A stretch of 41,578 nucleotides of DNA from Alphaproteobacteria bacterium (GTDB lineage: Bacteria > Pseudomonadota > Alphaproteobacteria > SMXS01): contig JAURPT010000026.1 of the NCBI GenBank assembly GCA_030836535.1, positions 1 through 41,578 on the forward strand, given 5' to 3'. How positions within the stretch are numbered: the stretch's first letter is position 1; the number at the start of each line of letters is the position of its first letter. Positions 9,619 to 14,221 of the stretch are shown piece by piece. Below the pieces are notes generated by a model. The model was not told the DNA's origin, ran no database searches, and saw only the letters and a program-made list of their open reading frames with translations. Made by a program: the position numbers and the translations under genes.

Positions 9619-10364
9619 TTATTCGAACGTGCTGATGATGGATTCTGCGTTGCCGCCTTCTTTGGCCACCAGCAAATGTTCATACAAGACAGCAACAAAT
9701 ATAGCCTCCACCGCCGACACTATACATAGCCAGGCATTTTCCAGCCGCCAGCTATACTGCCACGGCACCAGGTCACCCAGAAACACGACTGCCAATGTGA
9801 AAAAAAGTACAACACGAAGCCCAAAAAAATCCGCCACCGACACCCTTTGGTCAACGCGGCGCTCCGTTCCATGCTGACAAAAGCATCTGCATCTTCAAGC
9901 ACCAATACCGGAATAACAATAGCGAACATCAGTCCCAGAATGATGCTCGGTATGACCAACAACAGTAAGCCGATGGTGGTCGCAATTCCCACCATGATCA
10001 TGGCGCCGATAGCGCTGCCCAATTTCCGCATCCCAGCTGATGCGGCGTCCGTCAGGAAAACCTCTCGACCCCGCATGCGACCGACAATAAAGGGGGCAAC
10101 AATTAGTCCCTGTATCGTTGCCATAAGGGAATAAAGAATGTTTTCTACGCCGGTCGTAGCGCCCAGAATAAACCCAACAAAGCCTTCGTCTTCGTCGCCA
10201 ATATCCGGAAATTCGCGGAAAAACAGATCGAATGCGATCAAGGGTGAAAACACCAGCAGCGACAACAGTAGTAAGGGCAAAAAGTTCCTAAAAAACTACT
10301 GACCGGTTCCTGTCAGCACGGCGCCAATTGACATAGTGCCGGTTTGCACGACCGATTCATTCAT
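9619..10364 (-). pseudogene. disrupted paralog of the neighbouring polytopic membrane protein (TAG plus frameshift)
   Basis: A gene of about 248 codons can be traced from the ATG at 10364 (MNESVVQTGT...) to the TAA at 9619. It has two lesions: an in-frame TAG at 10296-10298 (codon 23), and loss of frame inside a run of seven T (minus strand; 9800-9806). One extra T there would join LGFVLYFF to FTLAVVFLGD. Alignment to the intact gene at 10435-11232 supports both: SIGAVLTGTGQ-stop-FFRNFL against SIGSVIGETFSLYGGNFL with no gap, RSAALTKGCRWRIF against RSRELTKGHKWGIF, and matching tails ending in TFE / VFE. GAGAG lies upstream of the start. It looks like a decaying tandem duplicate; a homopolymer sequencing error could explain the frameshift but not the TAG. 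Confidence 0.8.
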
Positions 10365-10379
10365 ATCATCACTCTCTCA

Positions 10380-10412
10380 AAAGAAAACGGGGCGACCATA
10401 GATAGCCGCCCC
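10380..10412 (-). terminator. intrinsic terminator of the 10435-11232 gene
   Basis: On the minus strand GGGGCG (10412-10407) pairs with CGCCCC (10394-10389) around a 12-base loop and is followed by GTTTTCTTTT. It lies 23 bases past the stop codon of the membrane protein and would insulate it from the broken paralog. Confidence 0.6.
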
Positions 10413-10434
10413 GGTACTTTTTGATGGACAAGTC

Positions 10435-11232
10435 CTATTCGAAGACCGCTGCCATCTGTTCGATGCTGACGCCTTCCTTGGACTCACGCAGATTGGTGTA
10501 AAGCGAGGCAAAGAAGGTGCTCGATAGGGCCAACAAAATGGCATAACTCAGCAATGTACCAATAAGAGCGCCAATTTCACCCAGGGCAATCGACACCATA
10601 ATCAATACCAGCTGAATGATCATTGAGATAATGTAGAAGACCAGATAGCCCCCAAAAATGCCCCATTTATGGCCTTTGGTAAGCTCCCGGCTGCGCCCCA
10701 ACGCCTCGATAGGACCAAGACCTTCCGCCAGAATAACCGGCCAGGTCACGATCAACATCAGCGCAATAATGATCCCCGGAATGATCAGGAAGATCATGCC
10801 AATACCGATCAGCACCGTCATCACAATCGAGGCCAACACCAGCGGAATGATCTTCACCAAGGCCCGGCCAATCATGGCTCCAAGGCCGACATCATTCCCG
10901 CTTTTTGACTCAATAGCGCCATAGGTGATGGCACCACTGCCCACGGAAAAGGCCAGCAGCATAAAGAACATGCTGGTCACCAGGCCTGTCATCATGGCCC
11001 CAATCGCACCCGGGTCTGCGATTGCTGAATTGGGATCAAAAGCACCACTGCCCGTCACTGCCGCCATCCCCATGGTGGCCACCATGATCGCCAAAACTGG
11101 TACGTATATGAGAATACCCGTGACGGTGAATTTCAGGAAATTGCCACCATACAGGCTGAATGTCTCACCAATCACCGAGCCGATGCTGAACGGCTTGCCG
11201 CCCCCCACGGCGCTTTCGATATCTGAACTCAT
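10435..11232 (-). CDS. polytopic membrane protein, GPDPase_memb/DUF975-like
   Basis: 265 residues from the ATG at 11232, preceded by GGGGAGGATCTA, an excellent ribosome site. About six hydrophobic segments are seen, including FLKFTVTGILIYVPVLAIMV and FLIIPGIIIALMLIVTWPVI. The amphipathic stretch GPIEALGRSRELTKGHKWGIFG is typical of the membrane domain found in some glycerophosphodiester phosphodiesterases and related YciC/DUF975 proteins. No catalytic domain is attached. It faces the MoxR/DUF58/SpoIIM/RDD operon; related membrane proteins might act with that module, but this is inference from position. The adjacent broken gene is a tandem paralog, so this is the surviving copy. Confidence 0.8.
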   Translation of the reverse strand: MSSDIESAVGGGKPFSIGSVIGETFSLYGGNFLKFTVTGILIYVPVLAIMVATMGMAAVTGSGAFDPNSAIADPGAIGAMMTGLVTSMFFMLLAFSVGSGAITYGAIESKSGNDVGLGAMIGRALVKIIPLVLASIVMTVLIGIGMIFLIIPGIIIALMLIVTWPVILAEGLGPIEALGRSRELTKGHKWGIFGGYLVFYIISMIIQLVLIMVSIALGEIGALIGTLLSYAILLALSSTFFASLYTNLRESKEGVSIEQMAAVFE

Positions 11233-11457: not shown

Positions 11458-13410
11458 ATGGGACAATACGACAATATCTTTCAGCCTATCCAGGTCGGCG
11501 GGGTCACGATCCCCAACCGAATTGTCCGTGCACCCCATGGCACGCTTTTGTTTGGCGATGACCTGATTGCCTATCACGAAGCCCGCGCCAAAGGCGGGGT
11601 TGGCATGTCAACCCTGGAGGCCACCAGTGTGCATGCCCATGCACCCGGTCGTATCCCGCTATGGTCCGATGACTGCAAGCCCTTCTACGAAAAACTGGTC
11701 GAAACCATAGAACCCCACGGGATGAAGCTGTTTCAACAGATCTACTATCCCGGCGCTACCGCCATGGGGCCGGATGGCGAGGCATGGTCGTCGAGCGCCG
11801 TGCCTAATCCCATGGGTAATGTCATGCCGTTCGAGATGACCAAAACGCAGATCGACGACATGGTCGGCGCTTTTGCCTCTGCGGCCCGCCGCCTGTGTGA
11901 AGCGGGCATGCATGGGGTCGATATTCATGCGTCCTCTGGCTATTTGATCCACGAATTCCTGTCGCCCGCCCTGAACAAGCGTGAAGACTACTATGGCGGC
12001 TCCTTCGAGAACCGCATGCGCTTCCTGCTTGAGGTGATTGCCGCCGTGCGCGCCGAGGTGCCAGACCCCAACTTTGTGGTCGGTGTGCGCATCCCGAACG
12101 AAGACTATGTCCCCGGCGGCCTGACAGCCGAAGACAATGCCGAGATCGCCAAGGTCGTTGACCCGCTGGTCGATTATGTATCGCTGCATATGGGCGCCTA
12201 TTGGCGCTTCCACAAGCTGATCGCCCCGTCAGACGACCCGCTGGGGATTGAGATGATCCCCAACAAGAAAATCACGCCCTTTATTACCAAGCCGCGCATT
12301 GTCACGGGTCGCATCATGACCATGGATCACGCGAGCTCCATCGTTGGCAGTGGCGAGGCCGATATGGTCTCCATGGTCCGCGCGCTGATTGCCGACCCGG
12401 AACTGGTCAACAAGGCTAAGCGCGGTGAAGAACACAAAATCCGCCCCTGCGTTGGCTCCAATATGGGTTGCGTTGGCCGGGTGATGAGCGGCGGCACACT
12501 CAGCTGTGTGGTAAACCTGTCTGCAGCCCGCGAAAAAGACATCAGCTTCGAGCCAAATGACACGACCGAAAGCGCCAAGAAGGTGCTTGTCGTTGGTGGC
12601 GGCCCGGCCGGTATGGAAGCCGCCCGCACCGCTGCCCTGCGCGGCCATAATGTAGAACTGCATGAAGCTGGCCGCAGGCTCGGTGGTCAAGTAGCCCTGG
12701 CCGCCAGTGCCCCGCACCGGGCAGATTTGGGCACGATCACCCAATATCTGGCAGAGGAAATCCAGGACCTTGGCGTGGACATTCGCCTGAATTCCTATGT
12801 TGATGCCGACATGGTCAATGAAATTTCACCCGACGAGATCATTATCGCCACAGGCACCACACCGCGGGATGACGGCTTCCAGCTTTCAACGCCAGCTGAC
12901 CCCATCAAGGGCCACGACCTGCCGCATGTTCATAATTCCTGGTCGCTGTTCGGGGTGGGCCAGACTCCGAATATTGAGGGGCCTGCGGTTATTTTTGATG
13001 ATACCGGCACCTTTGAGGCCCTGTCGGTCTCCGATGTGCTGCTGAAGGCGGGCGTCCATGTTACGCTCGTTTCCCGCACCGAGGCCATGGCCGGGAATAC
13101 GCCTTACCCACCGGTGACAGCCGGGGCGGCGCGTGAACGCCTGATGTCCTCAGACTTCGACTTTATTGGCGGGCATTACCTGCGCGAAGTGCGCGAAGAC
13201 AGCGTCGACATCGGCGTGTTGTTTACCGACCGTGTGCGAACGCTGGAGGCCAAAACCGTTGTGCTGGTGTCCTATAACGAGCCCAACCGCGAACTGGCAG
13301 AAGCCCTGATGAACACCAACCGGTCCATGCATCTGGTCGGTGACGTCAAAGGCCGCAACTCCATGATGTCGGCCATTCATGAAGGGGCCGAACTGGCCCG
13401 AAGCCTGTAG
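11458..13410 (+). CDS. FMN/FAD oxidoreductase of the Old Yellow Enzyme / 2,4-dienoyl-CoA reductase family
   Basis: 650 residues, the normal size for the three-part DCR/trimethylamine-dehydrogenase class. An N-terminal FMN TIM barrel (FQPIQVGGVTIPNRIV ... HASSGYLIHEFLSP with the conserved Tyr ... GEADMVSMVRALIADPEL) leads to an Fe-S segment, then an NAD(P)/FAD Rossmann domain (VLVVGGGPAGMEAARTA). The cluster motif is odd: family members have C-x2-C-x3-C-x11-C, but here Cys331, Ser334, Cys338 and Cys350 occupy the four places. Substrate unknown; relatives reduce enoyl thioesters or demethylate amines. GGGAGG precedes the ATG. The SDR gene follows after 28 bases, so both probably act in one catabolic route. 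Confidence 0.88.
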   Translation: MGQYDNIFQPIQVGGVTIPNRIVRAPHGTLLFGDDLIAYHEARAKGGVGMSTLEATSVHAHAPGRIPLWSDDCKPFYEKLVETIEPHGMKLFQQIYYPGATAMGPDGEAWSSSAVPNPMGNVMPFEMTKTQIDDMVGAFASAARRLCEAGMHGVDIHASSGYLIHEFLSPALNKREDYYGGSFENRMRFLLEVIAAVRAEVPDPNFVVGVRIPNEDYVPGGLTAEDNAEIAKVVDPLVDYVSLHMGAYWRFHKLIAPSDDPLGIEMIPNKKITPFITKPRIVTGRIMTMDHASSIVGSGEADMVSMVRALIADPELVNKAKRGEEHKIRPCVGSNMGCVGRVMSGGTLSCVVNLSAAREKDISFEPNDTTESAKKVLVVGGGPAGMEAARTAALRGHNVELHEAGRRLGGQVALAASAPHRADLGTITQYLAEEIQDLGVDIRLNSYVDADMVNEISPDEIIIATGTTPRDDGFQLSTPADPIKGHDLPHVHNSWSLFGVGQTPNIEGPAVIFDDTGTFEALSVSDVLLKAGVHVTLVSRTEAMAGNTPYPPVTAGAARERLMSSDFDFIGGHYLREVREDSVDIGVLFTDRVRTLEAKTVVLVSYNEPNRELAEALMNTNRSMHLVGDVKGRNSMMSAIHEGAELARSL

Positions 13411-13438: not shown

Positions 13439-14221
13439 ATGAGCGATCAGGATTTTGACCTGCCCAATTTCAACACGGACCTGAGTGGTGAGGTTGCCCT
13501 GGTCACCGGCACCACTGCCGGGCTGGGCAAACGCTTTGCCCTCGTACTGGCCAAATGCGGTGCCAAGGTGACGCTGACAGGCCGCCGTACCGACCGGCTG
13601 GCCGAGCTGGAAGAGGAAACTCGTGCCTTTGGCGGGGAATGTGCTTCGTTCCATCTCGACATGACCAATACCGACAGCATCATGAATATTGTGCCTGCGG
13701 TGGAAGAAAAACTCGGGTTAGTAACTATTCTGGTCAACAATGCAGGTATTCCTGATGCCCAGCGCGCCCACAAAATGCCGCTCGACCTGATTGACCGCGT
13801 TTTCGATACCAATTTACGCGGGCCCTATGTGCTCTCTTGCGAAGTGGCCAAACGACTGATTGATGAAGAAAAACCGGGGCGGATGGTAAACATCTCCTCC
13901 GTCGGCGCCTTCCGCTATGACGGCAATGGGGCCGCGCTCTATTCCATCACCAAGGCGGGCATTATCCGCATGACAGAAGCCCTGGCGGTGGAATGGGCGC
14001 GCTACAACATCAATGTAAACGCCATCGCCCCCGGCGCGTTTTCGTCAGAGATGATGGACGGCATGCTTGAGCGTGTTGGCGATATTACCCAGAACTTTCC
14101 GCGCAAACGGCTGGGCCAGCCAGCCCAGCTGGACAGCACCTTGCTCTATTTCGTCTCGCCGTCGTCAGAATGCGTAACAGGCAGTTTTGTGAAGGTCGAT
14201 GACGGCCAGGGGATCCGCTAG
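13439..14221 (+). CDS. short-chain dehydrogenase/reductase (SDR)
   Basis: 260 residues, a complete classical SDR: cofactor motif TGTTAGLG near residue 21, NNAGIPD, the catalytic Ser in VNISSVG, Tyr/Lys in YSITK, then the AIAPGAFSSEM loop. Arg residues right after the glycine motif (TGRRTDR) suggest NADP(H) preference. It probably oxidises or reduces an alcohol/ketone intermediate made or used by the flavoenzyme encoded 28 bases upstream. AAGGAAAC lies before the start. Its stop interlocks with that of hemY at CTAG, so no terminator fits between these convergent genes. Confidence 0.9.
   Translation: MSDQDFDLPNFNTDLSGEVALVTGTTAGLGKRFALVLAKCGAKVTLTGRRTDRLAELEEETRAFGGECASFHLDMTNTDSIMNIVPAVEEKLGLVTILVNNAGIPDAQRAHKMPLDLIDRVFDTNLRGPYVLSCEVAKRLIDEEKPGRMVNISSVGAFRYDGNGAALYSITKAGIIRMTEALAVEWARYNINVNAIAPGAFSSEMMDGMLERVGDITQNFPRKRLGQPAQLDSTLLYFVSPSSECVTGSFVKVDDGQGIR

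Follow-up and report, generated by a model that had tools for sequence, protein, structure and literature searches.

For the FMN/Fe-S/FAD flavoenzymes, the motif CX2CX3CX11-13C is described as conserved, and a [4Fe-4S] cluster is predicted from it in members of the family (excerpts of PMC11574389). Regarding NCR, an enzyme of the same family, the cluster lies at edge distances of 6 Å from the FMN and 9 Å from the FAD, the first FAD couple and the cluster are near −350 mV, and a weak [3Fe-4S] signal is reported as a breakdown product (PMC6502838, in the sections available). As for clusters held by three cysteines, the Mycobacterium marinum ferredoxins with Asn, His or Ser in place of the second Cys contain [3Fe-4S] and do not take up a fourth iron; the CxxSxxC ferredoxin Fdx9 binds such a cluster with a potential at or below −340 mV, and the Thr-type Fdx2 gave too little folded protein to be studied (PMC6237146, in part). 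Finally, in glutamate synthase a native [3Fe-4S] cluster near −280 mV relays electrons to FMN (from the accessible portion of PMC8097209).

The stretch of DNA analyzed here, hereafter the window, is 41,578 nucleotides long, comes from a draft genome of 183 contigs, and encodes a protein of 650 amino acids in which one residue of this motif differs. The features of its cluster loop are the following.

11458..13410, + strand: open reading frame of an FMN/FAD two-domain oxidoreductase, 650 amino acids, with the variant motif C-x2-S-x3-C-x11-C (frame and translation)
12448..12450, + strand: Cys331 (TGC), ligand 1; Cys in 143 of 143 aligned rows
12457..12459, + strand: Ser334 (TCC), replacing ligand 2; the 13 clade members all have Ser or Thr here, the 18 sister paralogues all have Cys, and the sister row from Rhodococcus has Ala
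12469..12471, + strand: Cys338 (TGC), ligand 3; Cys in 143 of 143 aligned rows
12505..12507, + strand: Cys350 (TGT), ligand 4; Cys in 143 of 143 aligned rows

The translated segment reads IRPC331-VG-S334-NMG-C338-VGRVMSGGTLS-C350, and the residues, codons and spacing given in an earlier, sequence-only reading of this DNA proved right. The frame has no internal stops, and a purine-rich stretch resembling a ribosome-binding site precedes its ATG. Pfam places an Oxidored_FMN barrel at the N-terminus (187.9 bits) and an FAD/NAD(P)-type domain, Pyr_redox_2, at the C-terminus (52.6 bits); this is the architecture of the FMN/Fe-S/FAD flavoenzymes, and the fold match extends over residues 1-650. The fold predicted by AlphaFold2 appears intact, with a mean pLDDT of 95.6, a pTM of 0.93 and a pLDDT of 94 at residues 331-340 and 341-350; whole-chain structural comparison gave Z values of 51.2 for trimethylamine dehydrogenase (2tmd), 50.4 for dienoyl-CoA reductase (1ps9), 50.0 for naphthoyl-CoA reductase, 49.8 for HisD and 49.3 for histamine dehydrogenase. 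Its motif makes the protein a variant member of a known family: it departs from CX2CX3CX11-13C at the second Cys, which is replaced, and the resulting arrangement, with three cluster Cys and a CxxC pair that has lost its second Cys, is that of [3Fe-4S]-type sequences. The only other cysteines, C73 and C147, are Cys in 4/13 and 1/13 clade members, respectively; no further Cys is conserved among the 13 members that could stand in for ligand 2, and the refuting condition named in the sequence-only reading, homologues in which a neighboring Cys supplies the ligand, found nothing in its favor. Candidates for a substitute ligand other than Cys may lie in the 27 columns where a polar residue is invariant in the clade and present in less than 20% of the sister rows.

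A search of 385 genomes of the class and 10 of the family (an order-level search gave the same 10) returned 12 orthologues in 11 other genomes, with identities between 62 and 83%; one genome has two copies, and some orthologues are near-copies of each other. The residue at ligand 2 is Ser in two of them, Thr in ten and Cys in none; including the window, the codons are TCC (three), ACC (nine) and ACT (one), and the three retained Cys use TGC and TGT. Nine of the ten family genomes, that of the window among them, encode an orthologue; G386 has only paralogues at 41-43% identity, and the two copies are in G264. In the genomes sampled, the clade is confined to the family of the window plus G091, G123 and G227, which belong to two other families of the class, and no further member appeared at E ≤ 1e-85 in 398 genomes of the phylum, where the hits besides the two proteins of the window's own genome were 33-40% identical.

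In the tree of 143 rows, calculated with the motif columns omitted, the 13 Ser/Thr rows form a single group with an SH-aLRT support of 100; it adjoins 18 four-Cys rows (support 96), many from the same genomes, and the joint group has a support of 99. The ligand first noted as missing is indeed missing; all 18 sister paralogues have the four Cys. The suggestion that C-x2-S defines a clade stands as to the clade, whose signature is rather C-x2-[S/T], with 3 Ser and 10 Thr. A sequencing or assembly error, or a gene in decay, could have produced the Ser codon, and the draft state of the genome speaks for this; the explanation is refuted by the 12 orthologues with Ser or Thr from 11 other genomes, and it fits poorly with a frame free of stops and a clade conserved over its full length (mean column identity 0.80), so that it is hardly conceivable. 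Since all 12 orthologues carry Ser or Thr, Ser334 is, on this comparison, an inherited change, and not the product of faulty assembly or of a mutation confined to this genome. Simple decay had also been discounted in the sequence-only reading, because of the conservation around the motif; the outcome was correct and the conservation is real, although 273 of the 631 twenty-residue windows of the protein are better conserved in the clade than residues 331-350. Around ligand 2, only the three Cys stand out in the alignment, and the conservation of the neighboring residues is ordinary.

Three orthologues outside the family of the window deserve a comment. That of G091 (L008/L060, G091:C22:49092-51041; family f91) has 82% identity, nearer than most orthologues of the family itself, and may reflect a recent transfer or a mis-binned contig. 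The frame of G227 (L067:4336-7671) is open for 1112 amino acids, as an upstream frame with no Pfam match continues into it without a stop, and may be a fusion or a chance open frame; in G123 (L068:6551-8011), a 487-residue frame and the orthologue are separate and overlapping.

In the whole set, the clade included, the second Cys is absent in 45 of the 143 relatives, and ligands 1, 3 and 4 are Cys in every row; at ligand 2, Cys occurs 98 times, Ala 26, Thr 10, Ser 4, Gly 2, and Ile, Met and Val once each. These rows are the window protein and 142 relatives, left after removal of L001, L005 and L006, which lack the cluster loop, of L038, of L003 and L007, which are the window itself, and of near-identical duplicates; 84 of 90 prepared sequences entered the structure alignment. 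A second set of 77 rows, collected across the phylum with a family profile, gave Cys 61, Ala 15 and Val 1, hence 16 of 77 without Cys, and Cys 1 and Cys 3 are present in 77/77; these rows are the new, non-redundant ones among 90 hit frames from 89 loci, of which 29 were given by the search and 60 were picked from the listed rows, mostly of other classes. The genome searches scored the top three (class set) or four (phylum set) candidates per genome and listed the best matches, so these counts describe strong relatives and not the whole family, and the set of 143 rows is biased towards the window protein.

The transition between Cys and another residue at ligand 2 occurs nine times on the best tree of the 143 rows, and at least four times on well-supported branches; 40 of the 140 inner branches lack support, which makes nine a best-tree count and four the safer figure, and the long rows of unsure placement include L004, L103 and L137. 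If any ligand were equally likely to be lost, four separate losses at one and the same position would have a probability of 4 × (1/4)^4 = 0.016, and nine of about 1.5e-5. Decay would hit all four ligands. On these alignments, the pattern indicates that ligand 2 is dispensable and that ligands 1, 3 and 4 are not. The replacing residue drifts through Ala, Ser, Thr, Gly, Ile, Met and Val across the family, which fits a vacant corner; a new ligand would not be expected to vary in this way.

Some of these rows have features of their own. In L103 the loop is C-x2-G-x2-C, and the refined alignment places Cys in all three other ligand columns. The phylum-sample rows L172, L174, L176, L178-L183, L185 and others carry CVGANYCIDRQYQGLDVLC, or nearly so, which is the Ala variant with the x2 spacing. 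The genome of the window encodes a four-Cys paralogue (on contig C22) and, in addition, L004 (G000:C86:19316-21265), with Ser at the second position in CTGSNQGC-x9-C; this protein is outside the Ser/Thr clade, on a long branch, and its Ser appears, to the extent that the tree allows a judgment, to have arisen independently. A link between the loss of the second Cys and the spacing C-x2-x-x2-C was considered and dropped, because the independent-pairs test had no power.

The order of the changes is suggested by a homologue on a plasmid of Rhodococcus sp. DMU1 (L252:5998-7953), which has 45.4% identity over 100% of the query and the motif C-x2-A-x3-C-x11-C. In a tree of 47 rows that includes the named plasmid homologues, this row is sister to the Ser/Thr clade (support 100/99); Cys is present at ligand 2 in the rows of Burkholderia, Novosphingobium and M. 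avium. The Rhodococcus row keeps the pocket of the sister type (His at 160, Gln at 166, Ser at 244), and it has Gln at 157, where both groups have His. The second cluster Cys was probably lost a single time, in an ancestor shared with the Rhodococcus-type homologue, and the simplest order would be loss of the Cys, divergence into Ala and Ser/Thr lines, and rebuilding of the pocket in the latter; a single sequence carries both this order and the sister position of Ala. The Rhodococcus locus also has genes for an indolepyruvate ferredoxin oxidoreductase, an acyl-CoA dehydrogenase, a MaoC protein, an SDR, a citryl-CoA lyase and a TRAP transporter, and it looks like a plasmid-borne catabolic cluster. 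Viral contigs gave no relative, and the scan of genome contigs gave two loci: L037, which belongs to the record G389 and is a true orthologue, and L038, a 32-residue match that was dropped. A plasmid search also counted two records in the 60-80% identity range; they are short pieces, because none remained at E 1e-90.

The reading that we put forward with modest confidence is that of a native three-Cys cluster, most likely [3Fe-4S] at rest, which occupies the usual site between FMN barrel and FAD domain and continues to relay single electrons from one flavin to the other, with Ser/Thr334 lining the vacant corner. Of the options listed in the sequence-only reading, a 3Fe cluster is the one favored by the three invariant Cys, the drifting residue at ligand 2 and the precedent of the ferredoxins. 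In this mechanism, a folded flavoenzyme whose lineage lost the second cluster Cys and kept the other three would bind its cluster where the family does; FMN and FAD would exchange single electrons by way of this cluster, and the residue at 334 would tune the potential with no need to bind iron. Given that the FAD couple and the cluster of NCR are near −350 mV, a Ser-type 3Fe cluster could serve in a chain of that kind. The ferredoxin analogy is limited by the spacing, CxxXxxC, and by the small, single-cluster nature of those proteins.

The main competing explanation, unlikely in our judgment though a serious contender, is a site-differentiated [4Fe-4S] cluster, with three Cys and, on the fourth iron, either the alkoxide of Ser/Thr or water/hydroxide, and with an altered potential or a labile iron. 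The hydroxyl side chain in all 13 clade members is what keeps the Ser/Thr-ligated form alive: a vacant corner would not demand one, and this counts against the 3Fe reading. The loop and fold are otherwise retained, and the Asp-type ferredoxin of Pyrococcus furiosus contains a 4Fe cluster when isolated anaerobically and a 3Fe cluster when isolated in air (PMC6237146, in part). The serine-ligated cluster proposed from the sequence is nevertheless the less supported option, because the clade itself alternates between Ser and Thr at this site and its sister row has Ala; moreover, Ala, Gly, Ile, Met and Val, which are not expected as side-chain ligands, occur in other lineages with the same three Cys retained, an argument that leaves a water/hydroxide ligand unaffected.

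Turning to the flavin site and the electron donor, three codons of the FMN domain are relevant.

11935..11937, + strand: Ser160, in the FMN pocket; Ser throughout the clade (13 of 13), and His in 77 of the other 130 rows, all 18 sister paralogues among them
11941..11943, + strand: Tyr162, the position of the catalytic Tyr, where DCR Tyr166 and NCR Tyr197 align; conserved in all 13 clade members
12187..12189, + strand: His244; all 13 clade members have His, and all 18 sister paralogues have Ser

Compared with the 18 sister paralogues, the clade has S160 for His, E166 for Gln, H244 for Ser and D155 for Glu, and it retains His157 and Tyr162 in 13/13 members. The alignment of Y162 with Tyr166 of 2,4-dienoyl-CoA reductase, which we take to have a catalytic role, means that the enzyme named in the sequence-only reading shares this residue with the clade. 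The equivalent NCR Tyr197 is called catalytically active (excerpts of PMC13101529), and its protonation is discussed in the available sections of PMC6502838.

That name lacks support in other respects. The DCR-like rows have GAGGIG in the second Rossmann part, a GxGxxG segment that presumably binds NADPH, and the window protein has FDDTGTF in its place, with DD-[TS]-G in 13/13 clade members. NCBIfam matched 34 models, and among the 25 matches listed none reaches its cut-off: TIGR03997 (mycofactocin OYE 2), the best-scoring curated model, matches over the full length with 444.5 bits against a cut-off of 793.15, and the BaiCD model NF041087 has 358.8 against 825. With the GxGxxG segment replaced and the pocket changed, the dienoyl-CoA reductase label is unsupported, and the alignment makes NADPH doubtful as the donor.

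The missing segment and the pocket changed at several positions are also what could be expected if the cluster had been lost, with the three Cys being structural or holding another metal, and FAD and FMN uncoupled or FMN reduced directly by an outside donor. We consider this improbable: the three Cys are invariant in 143 rows while the two other Cys of the protein are unconserved, and the 18 sister paralogues, which have four Cys, likewise lack GxGxxG, so that its absence does not track cluster loss. A loss of electron transfer between FAD and FMN, as had been envisaged, is less supported for the same invariance of the three Cys and for the relay through [3Fe-4S] in glutamate synthase (PMC8097209, accessible portion). 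Across the family, a link between the loss of the second Cys and the absence of GxGxxG was tried and rejected: the segment is present in 0/45 rows without the Cys and 14/98 with it, but this reduces to two changes on the tree, and the independent-pairs test, with four pairs, has no power (p 1); a looser pattern finds 15 Cys rows and one Ala row that matches by chance (WDGTGRHA).

For the three-Cys relay proposed above, we infer cluster binding, a 3Fe content, electron transfer through it and a partner other than NADPH, which might be an ETF; the genome of the window has two adjacent genes of the ETF family. The next gene, which bears on the function, is the following.

13439..14221, + strand, 28 bases downstream of the 650-residue frame: SDR gene, probably co-transcribed (Pfam adh_short, 160.4 bits); same order in the same-genus genome G389

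The neighborhoods were compared over 12 loci and L037, and 20 neighbor proteins were scanned with Pfam; several of the frames, for which Pfam found nothing, are possibly not real genes. At the threshold used, the SDR is shared only by the same-genus genome (L037/L059, one record); the plasmid homologue of Burkholderia has an SDR gene as its immediate upstream neighbor, and that of Rhodococcus has one three genes downstream. In the other neighborhoods of the clade there are a ring-hydroxylating dioxygenase subunit, an enoyl-CoA hydratase, a TonB receptor, and PQQ-type and thiolase-like proteins. These neighbors suggest catabolism and name no substrate; a role in degrading an unsaturated or alicyclic carbonyl compound is a reasonable guess and nothing stronger. 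A mycofactocin link was discarded, as the radical-SAM model TIGR03962 is below its cut-off in the genome of the window and in all 14 control genomes alike. Upstream, on the minus strand (9720-11232), two frames look like related multi-helix membrane proteins, with a shared LTKG-x2-W-x-IF-x-G noted by eye.

In conclusion, we advance as a tentative generalization that the FMN/Fe-S/FAD flavoenzymes have repeatedly and stably turned a [4Fe-4S] relay into a three-Cys relay, either [3Fe-4S] or open-site [4Fe-4S], through ligand 2 alone and in a fifth to a third of the members sampled; in the clade of the window this would have come with a rebuilt FMN pocket, so that cluster type and potential would be evolvable settings that match the substrate or the electron partner. 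If many members have three ligands only, the motif-based [4Fe-4S] assignments are wrong for them; if the generalization is true, the family is a natural series on the control of flavin-flavin electron flow by 3Fe or 4Fe clusters, with the four-Cys paralogues of the same genomes as controls. No report of a widespread loss of the second Cys in the family, and no biochemical work on the clade, was found among the matches listed in a search of the open-access literature, where few subscription journals are covered, and PMC7371122 has no mention of cysteine, motif or 4Fe-4S.

Regarding the known systems, FadH (2,4-dienoyl-CoA reductase, 1ps9) is like the window protein in domain order, fold, position of the cluster loop and catalytic Tyr; it differs in having four Cys (CIGCNQAC...C) instead of three, and the two are 29% identical over the structural alignment. 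The DCR-like rows sampled have segments of the GxGGIG type, whereas the clade has DD-[TS]-G. Trimethylamine and histamine dehydrogenases and HisD (2tmd, 3k30, 6l6j) share the fold, and 6l6j has a D-rich YDED where the window protein has FDDT; unlike the latter, HisD 6l6j has the second Cys and an x2 spacing (CIGCN-AC), and we know of no substrate common to the window protein and these enzymes. Mycofactocin OYE 2 (TIGR03997) is alike in its full-length match and unlike in that the score is below the cut-off and the genome has no radical-SAM gene over the cut-off. The C-x2-A relatives of the CVGANYCIDR type, which we believe to include the dimethylglycine/N-methylproline demethylases, also lack the second Cys and keep the others (26/143 and 15/77 rows), and they differ in a spacing that is mostly C-x2-A-x2-C and in their position on other branches of the tree. 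Finally, the M. marinum ferredoxins of the CXX?XXC type are small, single-cluster proteins with no flavin and the CxxXxxC spacing, but they have in common with the window protein the replacement of the second Cys, by Ser, Thr, Asn, His and others, and their Asn, His and Ser types hold [3Fe-4S] by mass spectrometry and EPR (PMC6237146, in part).
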